Below, in pieces: positions 5,424 through 13,951 of a stretch of DNA of 27,675 bases. The translations under genes and the position numbers were made by a program. Location of the stretch: positions 1-27,675 of IMG/VR virus record IMGVR_UViG_3300019776_000015; one strand, given 5' to 3'. Source of the stretch: a virus. The notes below the pieces were generated by a model. The model ran no database searches. It was not told where the DNA came from and saw only the letters and a program-made list of their open reading frames with translations. The stretch's first letter is position 1, and every line of letters starts with the position of its first letter.

Positions 5424-6821
5424 ATGGGAATTCGTGACTTTTTCAGCGGTAAAAAAGGCGTACAGAACGAATCAAACGTAGTTCTGGGACAGTTACAACT
5501 AGGTAACCAAATTGTTATTGGCGATCAAAAAAGCCAACCAGCACAGCAATTACTGTATGTAACAACGTCAAGCACCACTACCGCTGGTCGTGTTGTCGAT
5601 ATTTCTGGCCTTACACGCAATTCCACCGTTATGGGCTGCGTTGGCGTAAAGGCTAGAGCATTGGCGCAATGCGGTATTTCCATTATGTCCAAGGCCGAAG
5701 ATGGCACTTATGTGGATGCAATTAGAGATGAAAGCGTTGGTCCACGCGACAAGGCAAAAGCAAAGCAAGTATTGAGCCTGTTGCAAAACCCCAATAATTT
5801 CCAAAGCGCATACGAGTTTTGGTATCAATGGTGTATGTGGCAAGATTTGGCTGGCGAATCGTTCACTTTGTGGTGGCGCGAAAAGCAAAAAGACTCAATG
5901 TCTACGCCTATCGAAATGTATAACCTTGATGCAACTTTGGTCACGGTAAAACTGTCAGATACCCGTTATCCATTGTATGTTTTGAGTTCGCCATCCTACG
6001 GTTTCAGCAAAGATACGCCACTTGAATATTATCAAGTCATGCACTGCAAAGAAGCCGCATGGCAAGGTTCGTCAGGTTTTAACAAAGGTATTTTGGCAAC
6101 TGAATTGGTCGCGTTGGACCAAGACATTGATATTTATGCCAACTTTGTTATGCAAAATGGCGCAAAACCTTCTGGCATTTTCCGCACAGAACAGGTTATT
6201 CCAGATGCCAAGTACAAAGAAATTGCTGCGCGTATTAAGGAAACTTGGAACGCAATGACGGGAAGCCGTGGAACGGACCCAAGCAAGGCTGGTCAAGGTA
6301 TGTTGCTAGACCAAGGCATGACATACGAATCAATCCAAATGTTGACATTGCAAGATGCTGACGCTGCTGCTTTAAAAACTCAAACCATGAAGCGCATTTG
6401 CGGTTTGTTTGGTGTGCCACCAGCAATGCTTGGTATTGCGGACCAAAAATATAATAATACCCAAACGATGCTGGATGAGTTCTATAAAACCGTCATGTAT
6501 CCAATGGTTATTAACATTGAGCAAAAGTTAAAACAGCATTTACTCAAGGGATACCCAAATTTGGTGGTGCGTTTTGACACCAAGGATTTCTTGAAGGGCG
6601 CACCGCTTGACCAAATGAATTTTGTCACGGCTGGCGTTAAGGCTGGCATCATGACACCAAATGAAGCGCGTCAATATTTAAACATTCCAGATATTGACGG
6701 GGCAGACGAATTAGTGCAAAGTGGGGGTGGAAGCGACAAACCGATTTCTGGCACAAGTCCACAGGACACTGGTGGAGGTGGCGGTGGGCAACAAAAACGC
6801 ATGAACATAGGCTCTAAATGA
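5424..6821 (+). CDS. Portal protein (HK97 family)
   Basis: A 465-residue HK97-type portal, the dodecameric ring at the capsid vertex through which DNA passes. Family-like features are the N-terminal wing (TVMGCVGVKARALAQ near 69-83), NPNNFQSAYEFWYQ near 125-138, the conserved PSGIF near 248-252, a crown-side helix, and FGVPPAMLGI near 330-339 followed by YNNTQTMLDEFYKTV, the strongest signature. The C-terminus is glycine-rich and disordered (about 440-458). The ATG follows a GGGGTGA ribosome site. Its last four bases overlap the start of the HNH-AP2 gene (ATGA). It lies directly behind terL, as in most HK97-like phages. Confidence 0.95.
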   Translation: MGIRDFFSGKKGVQNESNVVLGQLQLGNQIVIGDQKSQPAQQLLYVTTSSTTTAGRVVDISGLTRNSTVMGCVGVKARALAQCGISIMSKAEDGTYVDAIRDESVGPRDKAKAKQVLSLLQNPNNFQSAYEFWYQWCMWQDLAGESFTLWWREKQKDSMSTPIEMYNLDATLVTVKLSDTRYPLYVLSSPSYGFSKDTPLEYYQVMHCKEAAWQGSSGFNKGILATELVALDQDIDIYANFVMQNGAKPSGIFRTEQVIPDAKYKEIAARIKETWNAMTGSRGTDPSKAGQGMLLDQGMTYESIQMLTLQDADAAALKTQTMKRICGLFGVPPAMLGIADQKYNNTQTMLDEFYKTVMYPMVINIEQKLKQHLLKGYPNLVVRFDTKDFLKGAPLDQMNFVTAGVKAGIMTPNEARQYLNIPDIDGADELVQSGGGSDKPISGTSPQDTGGGGGGQQKRMNIGSK

Positions 6822-7318
6822 CATTGACACAATCTAAGATTTCCGAATTTTTTGATTACAAAGACGGAAATTTGTTTTGGAAAGTTTCAAGAGGCTCAAT
6901 TTCTAAGTTCTCTAAAGCGGGAACTTTAGGAAGTCATGGATATGTGCAAATCAGATTGATGGGGAAATTTTATTTGGCTCATCGTTTGATTTATTTGTTA
7001 ATTAATGGTCAAATTCCAGAACAAATTGACCATATTGACGGTGATAAAACAAACAACAAAATTGAAAATTTACGATCATCAACACAATCACAAAACAGAA
7101 TGAACTCTGTCGGATTTTCAAAATCTGGTGTTAAAGGCGTTTCATGGGACAAACGATTGTGCAAATGGGCTGTACAGGTTAAAGTCAATAAAAAACGTAT
7201 TTATCATCATTTATTTGATGATCTTGAGTTTGCAGAACTTGTTTCAATAGAGGTGCGAAACAAGTATCATGGGGTTTATGCAAGACATAACATGGGACCA
7301 CTTAATGAGTGCAATTAA
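6818..7318 (+). CDS. HNH homing endonuclease with AP2-like DNA-binding domain
   Basis: A 166-residue HNH nuclease of the free-standing phage type. Residues 50-90 carry the core: AHRLIYLLINGQ, the catalytic IDHIDGDKTNNKIENLR (Asp71-His72, Asn79/80, Asn84) and STQSQN. Residues 100-155 resemble an AP2/ERF domain: SGVKGVSWDKRLCKWAVQV, then the conserved WxVxxxVNxKR-like strand and a helix. Such genes cut intron- or gene-less alleles and spread by repair, and frequently sit between structural genes without interrupting them. Here it lies between portal and protease, joined by ATGA overlap. It is A/T-richer than the neighbours, with more AAA/TTT codons, consistent with recent acquisition. All expected HNH residues are present, so it looks active. 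Confidence 0.93.
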   Translation: MTLTQSKISEFFDYKDGNLFWKVSRGSISKFSKAGTLGSHGYVQIRLMGKFYLAHRLIYLLINGQIPEQIDHIDGDKTNNKIENLRSSTQSQNRMNSVGFSKSGVKGVSWDKRLCKWAVQVKVNKKRIYHHLFDDLEFAELVSIEVRNKYHGVYARHNMGPLNECN

Positions 7319-7520
7319 TAAAGTGCTTGCATTTGTTGCTTCACAAATTAAAACGGCTAGTGTTACACTACCTACAATTACGAAACCCCACAAGATACAA
7401 GACGACAATCAATCAATTCACAATGGGGTGATAAATGAAACAACTGAATCTAGTCTGCGAAGCGCAAGTGAGCCTGTCGCAAAGCGCAAACGAGGCCGCC
7501 CAACCAAGCGGACAACTTGA
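7305..7520 (+). CDS. Small protein with a C-terminal AT-hook-like motif
   Basis: A 71-residue ORF whose start overlaps the end of the HNH gene (14 bases) and whose end overlaps the protease start by 86 bases. The last residues, KRKRGRPTKRTT, contain the RGRP core of an AT-hook, a minor-groove DNA-binding tail also seen at the end of small phage proteins. The rest is polar, with a hydrophobic start (INKVLAFVASQI). GGGA lies about eight bases upstream of ATG 7305. The long overlap is unusual, and the protease N-terminus may have constrained it. If real, a DNA-binding small protein beside head genes might assist packaging or nucleoid organisation; that is inference. Alternatively it is a shadow ORF. 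Confidence 0.5.
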   Translation: MSAINKVLAFVASQIKTASVTLPTITKPHKIQDDNQSIHNGVINETTESSLRSASEPVAKRKRGRPTKRTT

Positions 7521-8238
7521 AGCCCGTGTAACTACATGGGGTGCGCGTGAAGGCGCTGATGGTCGCAAATTTAACTATCAGCCCGAAGGCTTTGCAGATT
7601 GGGCAGCAGAATTTGCCGAAACTGGCAAACCTTTGCCAATGTTTTTAAACCACAACGACATGGGTATGCCTATGGGTGAGTGGACCGCTTTTGAGTTTGA
7701 CGATACAGGCATGACCGCAAAAGGCCGTTTGTATTTAAACACTGTTGGCGGCAATGACCTGTACCAAGTTCTAAAAGAATCCCCCAATATGTTTGGCGGC
7801 GTTTCTGTTGGCGCTTACGCTGAAGAAGCGAAATTCGTCAATCAAGAAGGCGATGATTTTGACCCTGACACAATGGGTGACGACGAAGCATATTTCCAAA
7901 TCACTAAAGGTGGTTTGCGCGAAGTATCCGTTGTGATGTATCCAAATAACCCCAATGCAGAGATTCAAAAACTTGAAGCGTTTGACGCAGAAGGCAATGT
8001 GAATCCACGAGTTTTGGAACGGGCTTTGCGTGAGGCTGGCCTTAACAAAAAGGATGCGACCACCGCATCTAGTATCTTCAAACGAGTAATGGCAGAGCGT
8101 GATGCAGCCGTAAAAGTTGAAGTAACCCCAACTCAGGGTGAACCTGATGCGGTGGTAAATGAAGCCGAAACCGAAGCACTACTCAAGGCCCTTGAGATGC
8201 GTGATTTGGAAAAGGCACTCTCCAAACGCCTTAAATAA
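7435..8238 (+). CDS. Prohead maturation protease (S78-like)
   Basis: A 267-residue HK97-type capsid maturation protease. It processes the capsid protein and/or scaffold inside the prohead. The core has WGAREGADGRKFNYQPEGF near 35-53, the catalytic His in FLNHND (His73), and the catalytic Ser in FGGVSVGAYAEE (Ser124), followed by LREVSVVMYPNNPNAEI near 163-179, the strand typical of this family. The C-terminal region (about 190-267) is helical, with RVLERALREAGLNKKDA, similar to the tails of protease genes in which the C-terminus acts as a short scaffold. The gene follows a GGGGTG ribosome site and is followed by the capsid gene after ten bases. The N-terminal 30 residues overlap the AT-hook ORF. 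Assignment is secure; cleavage sites are not visible. Confidence 0.92.
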   Translation: MKQLNLVCEAQVSLSQSANEAAQPSGQLEARVTTWGAREGADGRKFNYQPEGFADWAAEFAETGKPLPMFLNHNDMGMPMGEWTAFEFDDTGMTAKGRLYLNTVGGNDLYQVLKESPNMFGGVSVGAYAEEAKFVNQEGDDFDPDTMGDDEAYFQITKGGLREVSVVMYPNNPNAEIQKLEAFDAEGNVNPRVLERALREAGLNKKDATTASSIFKRVMAERDAAVKVEVTPTQGEPDAVVNEAETEALLKALEMRDLEKALSKRLK

Positions 8239-8248
8239 GGAAATCAAA

Positions 8249-9595
8249 ATGTCAGTTGAAAAAATCCTCGAAAAAGTTGACGCTATTGAAGCCGCCAACC
8301 TGTCGAAAATCGACGAAGTAAAGACCGAAGTTGCAACTACTGTTGAAGCCGCTAAAAGCGAAATCAACGAAAAGTTTGCTGCTCTGGAAGCCAAAGTTGC
8401 TGCTATCCAAGTGCCTGAATTCATCCGCGCACCCCACAAAACCGTTCGCGGTGATGTGAACCGCCGTGTGAAAGAGCAATTGGCTCAGTTCGCAAAACAA
8501 GGTGGCAACAAGTTGCACACTGAGTTGAAGTTGTGGGAATCTGAAGACCAACACGCTGCATACCTGACCGAAGCATCGACTTTGACAGGTTCAGGCGCTG
8601 GCATCGGTGGCCGCACCGCTTATGACCCTGTGTTCCACAAACTGCGTTTGATGAACCCAATGCGCGGTGTGTCACGCAACGTGGCTACTGATGGTTCTAC
8701 CTATCAGTTCCGCGCTAAGACAGGTGATGCTGGCGCTCAATGGGGCTATGCAATTCAAAACAACGGCTCTGCTACTACTGAAGCAACGAGCATTTGGCAA
8801 TTGAATATGCAAGACATTAACGTGCAATTCCCTATCCGTACTGCCGCGCTTGACGACATTGACGGTTTGGAAGCCAACGTTGTTGACGATATGCTCCAAG
8901 AATTCAGCCAACAAGAAGGCTTGAGCATGATCTTGAACAACGACCAATCTGGTTCTACAACCACCGCTTACGGTGCTACGAACGGTTTGCGTGGTTTGAA
9001 TCAATACCCCGGCGCTAACGGCACTTACACTGGCGGTACGATTTCTACTGCTGCTTTCGGTTCAAGCGGTACTGCTTCTACTGACGGTCTGCATAGCATC
9101 GCTACTTATGACCAGATCACAACCAACGGTTTTGGTACAGCAAACAACGTGAAGTTTGACGACATCATCAACTTCATTCACGCTTTGCCACAACAATACT
9201 GGTCTGCTAACAGCAAGTTCATTATCAATCCAACAATGTTGGCTGGTATCCGTGGCTTGGTGGATAACAACGGCACTCCAATCTTTGAACGTATGTCTCC
9301 ATTGGTGTACGAAGGTATCGTTGGTAAGTTGTTGGGCTATGACGTTGTTGTTAACTCCTACTTGGAGGCTCCAACTGCTGCTGGTAGCCAAGCAGGTACT
9401 AACAGCCAATACCCAATGTACTTTGGTGACTTCTCACGCGGTCACACCATCGTTGACCGTTTGAGCATGGTGTTGCGCCGCTACGAACAGACAGCCCCCG
9501 GCTTTATCACTTTCTACGGTGAAAAACGTCTGGCAACGTCTGTGGTTGATCCTTTCTCGATCATCCGCTATCGCTCAACAGCCACTGGCGCTTAA
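8249..9595 (+). CDS. Major capsid protein with scaffold-like N-terminal domain (HK97 fold)
   Basis: A 448-residue HK97-fold capsid protein. Residues 1-55 are a coiled-coil, Glu/Lys/Ala-rich delta-like domain (MSVEKILEKVDAIEAANL and following), expected to act as an internal scaffold and be removed by the protease. The mature part begins around residues 95-120, with YLTEASTLTGSGAGIGGRT. Conserved parts include PIRTAALDDIDGLEANVVDD, EFSQQEGLSMILNND and the C-terminal YEQTAPGFITFYGEKRLATS. The ATG at 8249 follows AAGGAAA; a longer open frame to 8159 lies inside the protease and is rejected. A strong terminator follows eight bases after the stop, and a paralogue lies behind it. Codon use is more GC-rich at third positions than in the next gene, consistent with high expression. 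Confidence 0.95.
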   Translation: MSVEKILEKVDAIEAANLSKIDEVKTEVATTVEAAKSEINEKFAALEAKVAAIQVPEFIRAPHKTVRGDVNRRVKEQLAQFAKQGGNKLHTELKLWESEDQHAAYLTEASTLTGSGAGIGGRTAYDPVFHKLRLMNPMRGVSRNVATDGSTYQFRAKTGDAGAQWGYAIQNNGSATTEATSIWQLNMQDINVQFPIRTAALDDIDGLEANVVDDMLQEFSQQEGLSMILNNDQSGSTTTAYGATNGLRGLNQYPGANGTYTGGTISTAAFGSSGTASTDGLHSIATYDQITTNGFGTANNVKFDDIINFIHALPQQYWSANSKFIINPTMLAGIRGLVDNNGTPIFERMSPLVYEGIVGKLLGYDVVVNSYLEAPTAAGSQAGTNSQYPMYFGDFSRGHTIVDRLSMVLRRYEQTAPGFITFYGEKRLATSVVDPFSIIRYRSTATGA

Positions 9596-9602
9596 TAAAG
9601 AT

Positions 9603-9635
9603 GGGGGGATTAATTTCCCCCCTCTTTTTGTTTTT
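9603..9635 (+). terminator. Intrinsic terminator between the two capsid paralogues
   Basis: GGGGGGA (9603-9609) pairs with TCCCCCC (9616-9622), with the loop TTAATT, followed by TCTTTTTGTTTTT. It sits immediately after the major capsid gene and 17 bases before the paralogue's start. It should stop most transcripts, with some reading through. Confidence 0.9.
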
Positions 9636-9651
9636 CAAAGGAATTATTTAA

Positions 9652-10671
9652 ATGAGTGCAAACCAAAAAATCCTAGACGGCATTAAGAAAGCCATCAACG
9701 AAGGCGGCAAAGTAACAATCGACCTGCGCGAAGCCTCTGCAATCACTGGCTCTGGTCTTGGTATTGGTGGTCGCACTTATTTTGATGATGCTTTTGCTGC
9801 ATTGCGTTATGCCAACCCTTTCCGCATGGGTTCACGCAACATCAAATCCCCAAACAGTTCTGCGGTTCAGTTCGTTGCCAAAACAGGTAACGCAACAGGC
9901 GCAAACCCTTGGAACCCTAACGCTACGCCTAACACTGGTTCACCAGATGTAGCCACATCATTCTGGGTGATGCCTACACGCATCATTAACGCGCAATTGC
10001 CAGTTCGTATTGCTGCATTGGATGATATTAATGGTTTGCAAGAAACATTGATGACTGACTTGGCGCTGGAATTCAGCCAACAAGAAGGCGCATCAATGGC
10101 AATTAACAACGATCAAGCAGGTTCTAGCACCACAACAACTGGTGGCACATACGGCTTGCGCGGTTTGGATTCTTACGTTACTGGCGCTACTTCTGCTTAT
10201 GGCTCAAGCGGCACAGCAATCACAAACGGTATCCACACGATTGCCACAGTATCTTTGGGTGGTACAACTCCAACCTATAACAAGATCACAAACATTGCTA
10301 ACGCATTGCCAGCCCAATATTGGGCATTGCCAACAACCGCTTGGCACATGACCCCAACAATGATTCAAACCTTGCGTCAGTTGAAAGACAGCCAAGGCTT
10401 GCCATTGTTCTTGGAATTGGGCGAACCCGGCGAAGGTGGTGCAGTTGGTTCAATCTTTGGTTGGCCTGTTATCCCTAATTCTTACCTGTCTACTGATTTC
10501 CCAATCTATTTGGCAAACTGGGACCGTTTCCTTACTGTTGCTGACATTGAGGAAATGGACATTCAGGTGTACGAACAAACCGCCCCCGGCTTTGTGACCC
10601 TGTACGCAGAGCGCCGTGTTGTTAGCACTGTACGCGACCCGTTCGCTGGTGTTCGTGCAAGCGCAGCCTAA
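9652..10671 (+). CDS. Second HK97-fold capsid paralogue lacking the scaffold-like domain
   Basis: A 339-residue protein homologous to the mature part of the capsid protein just upstream. Shared blocks include LREASAITGSGLGIGGRT (cf. YLTEASTLTGSGAGIGGRT), RIAALDDINGLQETLMTD, EFSQQEGASMAINNDQ, YGLRGLDSY and YEQTAPGFVTLYAERRV. The N-terminal coiled coil is absent: only about 24 residues precede the shared segment, versus about 105 in the first copy. Inserted residues near 78-90 (ANPWNPNATPNTGSP) differ. It has its own ribosome site AAAGGAA but sits behind a terminator with no obvious promoter. It is likely a structural head protein, perhaps a vertex or minor shell component, or a minor coat. Alternatives are a recently duplicated gene becoming redundant; however, all conserved blocks look intact. 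Confidence 0.9.
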   Translation: MSANQKILDGIKKAINEGGKVTIDLREASAITGSGLGIGGRTYFDDAFAALRYANPFRMGSRNIKSPNSSAVQFVAKTGNATGANPWNPNATPNTGSPDVATSFWVMPTRIINAQLPVRIAALDDINGLQETLMTDLALEFSQQEGASMAINNDQAGSSTTTTGGTYGLRGLDSYVTGATSAYGSSGTAITNGIHTIATVSLGGTTPTYNKITNIANALPAQYWALPTTAWHMTPTMIQTLRQLKDSQGLPLFLELGEPGEGGAVGSIFGWPVIPNSYLSTDFPIYLANWDRFLTVADIEEMDIQVYEQTAPGFVTLYAERRVVSTVRDPFAGVRASAA

Positions 10672-10681
10672 AAGGTAAATC

Positions 10682-11344
10682 ATGGCTGTTGAGAACCAAA
10701 CACTCGCGCCGTTTTATTCCGATCAACGGAATCCGTACAACTACGCCAAGTTTGAACAGATTAACCGTGATGTATCTACCCAATGGCTGACATTGGGCGA
10801 GATCACACAGCAGTTAAACCTGTTTGAAGATGAAAGCCAAGACGCTTACCTTTCCTCACTTGAACTTGCCACGCGCATGGCAATTGAGGACTTTTTGGGC
10901 TTGGCAATCTTTGCAACGCAGTGGGTGGTTTACTATCCAAATTTTGGCCTATACAACACAGCGGTTTTTTTAGACCTGCCAGAAGTATCAGGGCCAAACC
11001 AAGGCCGTACAGGTGTAACGATTAATTCTGTGTTGTATTACGGGAATTCAAATACGGTTCCTAATGTAATTCCTTGCACTGGTTATTCGTATGACCCAAC
11101 TGGCAATCGCGTTATTTTGAACACGATTCCAAACACGCTAAACCAAACGGTTGCCAATCCAATTTCTGTGATCTATACACAGAACGCAAGTCCTTTGGCA
11201 TCCTATCCTGTTATTAAACAGGCTGGTTTGCTGTTGTTGACGCATTTATACAACAACCGTTCTAATACAACGGAAGTTCAGTTGAAGCAAATCCCGTTTG
11301 GGGTTGAGGCTTTGTTGCGACCATACAAACCATTGGTGATGTAA
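10682..11344 (+). CDS. Head-tail connector protein (gp6-like adaptor)
   Basis: A 220-residue protein matching in position and pattern the head-tail connector (HK97 gp6-like, SPP1 gp15-like) family, which forms the ring below the portal. The helical N-terminal part contains LGEITQQLNLFEDESQDAYL near 38-57 and LELATRMAIEDFLGLAIF near 61-78, the family's characteristic helix pair. The middle is strand-rich with VLYYGNSNTV, an unusual insertion relative to the short HK97 form. The C-terminus ends with PVIKQAGLLLLTHLYNNR, then LKQIPFGVEALLRPYKPLVM, a strong connector signature. It starts ten bases after the capsid paralogue, and its last base is the first base of the next ATG. Confidence 0.88.
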   Translation: MAVENQTLAPFYSDQRNPYNYAKFEQINRDVSTQWLTLGEITQQLNLFEDESQDAYLSSLELATRMAIEDFLGLAIFATQWVVYYPNFGLYNTAVFLDLPEVSGPNQGRTGVTINSVLYYGNSNTVPNVIPCTGYSYDPTGNRVILNTIPNTLNQTVANPISVIYTQNASPLASYPVIKQAGLLLLTHLYNNRSNTTEVQLKQIPFGVEALLRPYKPLVM

Positions 11345-12148: not shown

Positions 12149-12673
12149 ATGGCACTCATTAATAAAGTCTTACCCGGTTATGTAGCAACCCTTTGGATGC
12201 AAACAGGCTCAAACCCCACTCCATTGACTGACGCGCAATTGGGTACTTGGACAGGCCAAGTTGCTGACATTATTGGCACTGCCGCTGGCGGTACTGGTAC
12301 TGATGGCGAACTCGTACCCGTGGAAGCAATCCCTGCTTTTGGTTCTGATGACGCATCGGCAACTTATTCTATTGCTGGCGCTCGTACTGGCGCTAAAATC
12401 ACTACACAAAACCAAGTGACTTCAATGCAAATCACTGCTGCTTGGAATCCAGCCGATGCAGCCTTGTTGTTGATTCGCGCTGATGGCACAAGCGGTTCTA
12501 TCATTCGCACTTATGTGGTTGCTGTTTATGATGGTACTAACACCGTTGCTTACGCTTTCAACGCTCGCGTTGGTGGTTTGCACTGGGACTTGTCCCCATC
12601 TGCTGAAAGCAAGATGATCTTTACAGTACACCCCGTTGGCGGCAACTCCTACGGTTGGTCTAACAACACCTAA
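12149..12673 (+). CDS. Major tail tube protein
   Basis: A 174-residue strand-rich protein, Ala/Gly/Thr-rich, directly before a terminator and upstream of the G/GT and tape-measure genes. Position, size and composition fit the tail-tube protein, whose stacked hexameric rings form the non-contractile tail. The N-terminal half contains KVLPGYVATLWMQTG; the second half has TRTGAKITTQNQVTSMQITA-like strands and YVVAVYDGTNTVAYAFNARV near 116-135. It has its own ribosome site TAAGGAA at about 12134. High third-base GC relative to the minor tail genes suggests strong expression. Specific family recognition is weaker than the context. Confidence 0.8.
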   Translation: MALINKVLPGYVATLWMQTGSNPTPLTDAQLGTWTGQVADIIGTAAGGTGTDGELVPVEAIPAFGSDDASATYSIAGARTGAKITTQNQVTSMQITAAWNPADAALLLIRADGTSGSIIRTYVVAVYDGTNTVAYAFNARVGGLHWDLSPSAESKMIFTVHPVGGNSYGWSNNT

Positions 12674-13462: not shown

Positions 13463-13951
13463 ATGAGCAAATTAGCATCAGCATTTGGCAAAGACTTTTT
13501 GAAGAACAAAGACAAGGTTCGTATTCGCACGTTTGATCTTGGTGGTCATACATTCAAAGTCAAAGTACCACTTACATCCGAATTTGAAATCATGCAAGAA
13601 CGCATGAAAGTTGTGGATGAAGAAAAGGTGGAAAAGTATTACAAAGAAATCACAAAAGATTTGGAAAAGTATCGTGAAAAACCTGATACTGATTTGAAAT
13701 GCGAATTTTTAGAAAACGACATTGTTATTGATGGCCGTTCAATGCGTGAGGCGGCTAAAAATAAGATCATTGCTGAAAACCGCATTACTGAAATGTTTAA
13801 GTTGCTTGTTCCAGAAGAAAAAGATTTCGATATGGAAACAATCACTTATGCAATGGTTGAAGAATTATTCCCTTTTGCAATTCAGATGCAAGTGGTGGAA
13901 ATGATTGGAAAAGTTGTTTCACCAAACTATGAGACTCAAAAGGGAAAATAA
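13463..13951 (+). CDS. Tail assembly chaperone, G-like (zero frame)
   Basis: A 162-residue protein between the tail genes and the tape measure, the usual place of lambda-G-like tail chaperones. It has an N-terminal strand-rich part (VRIRTFDLGGHTFKVKVPL near 19-37), then charged helices with EEKVEKYYKEITKDLEKY and a C-terminal helix ending IQMQVVEMIGKVVSP near 138-152. In most phages the end of G carries a programmed -1 slip that produces a longer GT. Here the last codons contain a double slippery run (see the frameshift site). It is thought to coat the tape measure until assembly. It is charged and lysine/glutamate-rich, as usual. Confidence 0.85.
   Translation: MSKLASAFGKDFLKNKDKVRIRTFDLGGHTFKVKVPLTSEFEIMQERMKVVDEEKVEKYYKEITKDLEKYREKPDTDLKCEFLENDIVIDGRSMREAAKNKIIAENRITEMFKLLVPEEKDFDMETITYAMVEELFPFAIQMQVVEMIGKVVSPNYETQKGK
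13939..13948 (+). other. Programmed -1 ribosomal frameshift site, overlapping AAAGGGA and GGGAAAA
   Basis: Read in the zero frame as A-AAG-GGA and G-GGA-AAA, the sequence contains two overlapping X-XXY-YYZ heptamers (13939-13945 and 13942-13948), the second immediately followed by the zero-frame stop TAA. Lambda uses a GGGAAAG-type heptamer at the equivalent point. The -1 frame is open from here through 14295. No clear downstream stem-loop is visible by eye. Confidence 0.87.

Follow-up and report, generated by a model that had tools for sequence, protein, structure and literature searches.

The window analysed here, a virus record of 27.7 kb, encodes two neighbouring HK97-type capsid proteins, A and B, the second of which lacks the scaffold-like N-terminal region of the first. 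We consider it probable that they form a two-protein HK97-type shell in a group of siphophages of about 38 kb, with B as the scaffold-less subunit that most likely makes up the vertices (pentons). In support of such a shell are the presence of the pair in 304 of 324 loci, purifying selection, a single clade of B sequences, the intermediate codon adaptation of B and a layout parallel to that of phage T4. From these we infer that B is present in virions as a member of the shell located at the vertices, as well as the copy numbers of the two proteins and the activity of a terminator between their genes.

A second capsid-fold gene in the head module

Gene A (8249..9595, ATG at 8249; 448 aa) encodes the major capsid protein, with matches to PF05065 (1.1e-32) and to the major head protein family phrog_10; its orthologue in phage P19250A is annotated 'gene transfer agent capsid protein'. 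Gene B (9652..10671; 339 aa) is its neighbour on the same (+) strand, as are the portal, protease, adaptor and putative tube genes and the intergenic hairpin described below, after a gap of 56 nt, and matches PF05065 at 2.3e-19. Both proteins pass the curated cut-off of the Phage_capsid family (24.2 bits), A with 114.1 bits and B with 70.3 bits, and their PHROG matches are the major-head families 10/15928. They are 43% identical over 339 columns (BLASTP, E 1e-77) and 49% identical across the aligned core in a translated search. The initial annotation had described the two genes as tandem capsid paralogues alike over the mature fold, which these values bear out, and the blocks that it listed as common to both (GSGxGIGGRT, RxAALDDIxGL, EFSQQEG and YEQTAPGF) are present in each protein. 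The E-value, together with the 324 loci, rules out chance similarity or a local duplication.

The shared part begins with the motif EAS-LTGSG-GIGGRT, which starts 107 residues into A and 26 into B; B thus lacks about 81 N-terminal residues, close to the 80 estimated initially. The missing residues match the N-terminal coiled-coil region of A. Residues 1–107 of A (8249..8569) have no counterpart of equal length in the joint alignment and include a helix at 3–52 in a low-confidence model; approximately this stretch is predicted to be a coiled-coil, delta-like scaffold or propeptide region. B has a short N-terminal extension (residues 1–26, 9652..9729) with a conserved helix-like ILxGIKxA that precedes the EAS-LTGSG motif of the N-arm.

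The surrounding genes are those of an ordinary siphophage head module, to which one additional capsid-fold gene has been joined. TerL, the portal protein (5424..6821; PF04860, 6.3e-59) and an S78 prohead protease (7435..8238; PF04586, 3.7e-9) lie 5' of A; the protease gene is directly adjacent, and its product would be expected to remove the N-terminal region of A. Right behind B follow a gp6-like head-tail adaptor (10682..11344; PF05135, 5.2e-5; phrog_40, 1.8e-12), a head-completion protein, a tail-terminator-like protein and a putative major tail (tube) protein (12149..12673), the last assigned from its position behind the tail terminator and its high codon adaptation, with no family match. 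An HNH endonuclease of the homing type with an AP2-like domain (6818–7318) lies between portal and protease and overlaps the portal stop by 4 nt.

The AlphaFold2 model of B is of moderate confidence (pLDDT 64, pTM 0.67). Its best match is the RcGTA capsid protein [Foldseek E 2.3e-14; VIA Z 19.6, rmsd 3.7, 241 residues], and the matches are HK97-fold proteins from both phage capsids and encapsulins, chains of the two-component family 2B encapsulins among them (Z 15.1–15.7). On this model B has the HK97 fold; a phmmer search of the PDB with B alone returned nothing useful. Structure prediction for both proteins, proposed initially as a check, was thus informative for B, the model of A (pLDDT 47) being too poor for fold comparison. 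We had expected stronger conservation in the lateral contact surface of B than in the axial domain, but segment distances, with domain borders taken approximately from the moderate-confidence model, gave no clean split: the N-arm is as conserved as in A, the A-domain is the most variable segment, and the spine helix and P-strands are also relaxed.

The pair is conserved throughout the group

Relatives were gathered by five scans of viral contigs and one of genomes, together with a phage collection. They comprise 324 loci with A, B or both; this and the following counts do not represent independent events, given the overlap between loci and the relatedness of many contigs. Intact A followed by B, in that order, is present at 304, and in the other 20 the partner lies past the end of the contig. 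The loci contain 184 distinct complete pairs, none with a decayed B; over the first 77 of these the identity to the window falls to ~63% for A and ~51% for B. Complete-length records (about 37–39 kb) have exactly two matches apiece, and so does the cultured Methylophilaceae siphophage P19250A, where B is annotated 'hypothetical protein'. Close relatives with A only were sought in the five viral scans, the genome scan and 369 + 398 genomes; none was found, the only single-capsid matches being distant. The nearest phages of the collection beyond this group share ~24% identity and carry a single capsid gene; Bcep176, RHph_X2_25 and MW462191 likewise show only one, and the 26 distant matches in 398 Pseudomonadota genomes are also single. 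A profile search of 143 genomes gave just seven capsid matches, a figure unusable as an estimate of the rarity of tandem pairs because the B gene of one genome (G001) was missed by it. The initial annotation had proposed looking for the same pair in related genomes, and had held A-only relatives and decayed second copies against its own reading; the former search was answered by the 304 intact loci and neither of the latter appeared.

No siphophage with two capsid paralogues turned up in searches of the literature, a weak negative that leaves aside the P19250A genome paper; nor did the literature searched contain virion proteomics, cryo-EM or genetics for this phage group. MAG bins of archaea, alphaproteobacteria and gammaproteobacteria include contigs of the group (L148, L144 and L146); the placement of L148 with Candidatus Nitrosotalea is probably a binning error.

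Duplication, specialisation and exchange of B

A tree was built from 31 divergent pairs and three outgroups, and in it the B sequences form one clade on a long stem (SH-aLRT 100). A tree constrained to a single A clade was not rejected and obtained a higher score than the free search; with outgroups this distant (stem above 2.4), rooting cannot separate an origin of B before A from an origin within A. The simplest reading of the tree is that a single old duplication, predating the diversification of the whole group, would account for all copies. Pairwise dN/dS has a median of 0.14 in A and 0.20 in B, values that are approximate because dS is close to saturation (about 1.7) and that indicate purifying selection on both proteins. 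Forty-nine columns are invariant in A and B alike and 46 are conserved in A yet variable in B, such as R410-R411-Y412 and, at the C-terminus, Y441-R442-S443, which argues that the two proteins are specialised rather than redundant. That B is a decaying copy is ruled out by the 184 intact pairs and a dN/dS of about 0.2.

Some closely related loci differ in B far more than in its neighbours. Between L010 and L101, A is 95% identical and the adaptor about 90%, B just about 62%; with L010, L075 and L079 set against L101–L103 the values are 95% (A), 79–90% (adaptor) and about 62% (B). With the flanking genes so alike and B so different, B is evidently swapped as a single-gene cassette between the intergenic hairpin described below and the adaptor gene, the replacement being a B in every case. 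Set against L063, the window shows its main difference in the A-domain of B, with 44% identity there and 78–91% elsewhere. Such exchange would be easiest if B builds capsomers of its own, whose axial contacts may change together. One clade of longer B proteins (411–416 aa; L160:6095-7333, L254:4982-6220, L256:4631-5851 and others) has ~70 inserted residues in the E-loop, which match phrog_21413 and the tail-fibre-protein family phrog_38233 and which read as a shared surface module within a capsid-fold protein.

A hairpin behind gene A

A sequence scan located a G/C hairpin followed by a T tract, resembling an intrinsic terminator, at 9603–9622 (GGGGGGATTAATTTCCCCCC-TCTTTTTG). Hairpins of this type (G/C, ≥6 pairs) stand behind A in 179 of 184 distinct pairs, as against 5/182 behind B, 0/184 before A and 2/184 in shuffled sequence. 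A strict terminator rule holds after A in 154 of the 184 pairs with 102 different hairpin sequences, so that the element is kept across relatives while its sequence changes. From 7894 to 9997 the + strand has no match to sigma-70 type promoter patterns, the only ones used. Both the terminator-like element and the lack of a clear promoter ahead of B had been noted from the sequence at the outset, and both hold. Because the hairpin precedes every later gene, however, it indicates an excess of A over all that lies downstream and not a rarity of B in particular. In several relatives the hairpin is kept with a weak T tract, and it may therefore serve as a 3' stabiliser of the A message instead of a terminator. 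About nine loci (L134:6074-6372 and about eight others) have an ORF of ~96 residues and unknown function (phrog_2859) between hairpin and B; in these the A-hairpin unit is intact. Another strong hairpin of the terminator type (AGCCCCCCTAATCGGGGGCT-TTTTTTGTTG) is found in the window at 1368–1387, 5' of the packaging genes.

Codon adaptation places B between A and the portal

Codon adaptation was used as an indirect proxy for expression, with the non-homologous putative tail tube gene as the reference. Median values are 0.726 for A and for the tube protein, 0.703 for B, 0.663 for the protease, 0.654 for the portal, 0.646 for the adaptor and 0.603 for TerL. Within genomes B exceeds the portal in 136 of 146 cases and the adaptor in 156 of 172, and lies below A in 142 of 184, counts that are inflated by the relatedness of the genomes. 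In a T4 control (reference: tail sheath plus tube) the corresponding values are 0.678 for gp23, 0.638 for the vertex protein gp24, 0.608 for the portal and 0.56–0.60 for others. A position above portal and connectors and below A makes it look as if B were needed at an intermediate copy number, which would fit ~55 vertex subunits and not 5–12 copies. The initial annotation had suggested a low-copy component, supplied by reduced read-through, in a two-component shell. The shell itself agrees with the conserved pair, selection, the B clade, the intermediate codon adaptation of B and the T4 layout; the route to low copy needs correction, as B is not alone in lying behind the terminator (the connector and tail genes do so too, including the putative tube gene with its major-capsid-like codon adaptation) and B, above portal, protease and connectors in codon adaptation, does not look like a protein of very low copy. 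A gene of unknown function at 13463–13951 also has high codon adaptation in the window (0.763), not consistently so in relatives, and its product is possibly another abundant virion protein.

Discussion

In the arrangement that we favour, A would be the hexon-forming major protein, carrying its own scaffold-like N-terminal domain that is cut off by the S78 protease. B, derived from one ancient duplication and without the scaffold domain, would be a dedicated shell subunit present in tens of copies, most likely as pentamers at the 11 non-portal vertices; for a T=7 shell this would mean about 55 copies of B and about 360 of A. Its recruitment would depend on lateral contacts to A and not on the scaffold. 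The hairpin would end most transcripts or protect the A mRNA, leaving A in large excess over everything downstream, with the level of B lifted above that of the neighbouring genes at translation.

B could alternatively co-assemble with A in hexons and pentons alike, or occupy particular quasi-equivalent positions, as in the family 2B encapsulins. The complete HK97 fold of B, the 49 invariant residues that it has in common with A, its high codon adaptation and the encapsulin chains among its model matches are all compatible with such a mixed shell. We nevertheless regard it as unlikely, since B lacks both the coiled-coil region and A-specific conserved residues, those at the C-terminus included, and since B changes faster than A and is swapped as a cassette between genomes whose A proteins are still 95% identical, which is easier to reconcile with capsomers made of B only. 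Slightly lower still is our estimate for a minor head component with some other role, whether a portal-proximal ring, an internal or assembly-regulating capsid-like protein or a protein of the head surface that contacts the host. The position of B directly ahead of the connector genes would suit it, as would the greater variability and exchangeability of B, the separate replacement of its A-domain in some genomes and the clade whose E-loop insert resembles a tail-fibre module; yet the codon adaptation of B is above that of the connectors and of proteins of the 12-copy class such as the portal, the whole fold is kept and B is never lost.

Redundancy commonly comes about when a major gene is duplicated in tandem, and on this general ground B might be a surplus copy, or one in decay, or else a major capsid protein that takes the place of A in some conditions. 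This we consider very improbable, given 184 distinct intact pairs with no decayed copy, a dN/dS of about 0.2, the single old duplication and the absence from B of the scaffold-like region needed for assembly alone.

If B is indeed a vertex protein, the universal and selected pair in phages of ~38 kb means that a dedicated vertex protein requires neither a large genome nor a separate scaffold. With P19250A as a cultured member, the group would offer a simpler system in which to ask how an HK97 lattice distinguishes hexamers from pentamers and what a fused scaffold domain is needed for. A function would also be given to a protein annotated 'hypothetical' in widespread freshwater and marine phages.

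Comparison with known capsids

A head shell of two proteins is best known from T4, a far larger phage. The order of its head genes is portal (20), protease (21), scaffold (22), 23, a terminator (locus L326 6537-6556), an inserted segD and 24. gp24, thought to have arisen from gp23 by duplication, forms the 11 pentameric vertices and has a propeptide of 10 residues as against 65 in gp23; its attachment is thought to trigger the T4 protease (PMC9958956). Like A and B, gp23 and gp24 are a pair of HK97-fold paralogues encoded in the order portal, protease, major capsid protein, second capsid protein, with a terminator directly behind the major gene (in T4 behind gene 23, before segD and 24). The N-terminal region of the second protein is the shorter one in both systems (26 residues before the N-arm motif in B, 107 in A), and codon adaptation ranks equally, the major protein above the second capsid protein and the latter above the portal. 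Unlike the phages described here, T4 is a prolate myophage of ~169 kb with a separate scaffold protein; gp23 and gp24 are 28% identical over part of the chain only, A and B 43%, and the vertex location is established for gp24, proposed for B.

The HK97-type shells of HK97, RcGTA (the nearest solved structure) and Bcep176 have a capsid protein with a fused delta domain and share the plan of A, with an N-terminal coiled-coil region, an S78 protease upstream and a gp6-like adaptor downstream, but in these one protein makes hexamers and pentamers. The family 2B encapsulins, according to PDB titles, combine two HK97-fold paralogues in each shell as we propose for A and B; they are, however, bacterial nanocompartments with no portal, protease or scaffold region. 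Neither A nor B has a Pfam match to an insert domain, cNMP-binding or otherwise, and their context is a phage structural operon, not that of an encapsulin. B shares with gp24 that it is a paralogue of the major capsid protein with an adjacent gene. A and B match only PF05065 and PHROGs 10/15928 and no T4 capsid family, which places B outside the gp24 family, so that a T4-like split would be a convergent, independent event. On balance, and a little more cautiously than for a two-protein shell with B at its vertices, we lean towards the view that, in a widespread lineage of ~38 kb siphophages, a split of labour like that of T4 arose separately in the head, between a scaffold-carrying hexon protein and a dedicated scaffold-less penton protein that is swapped between phages as a cassette.
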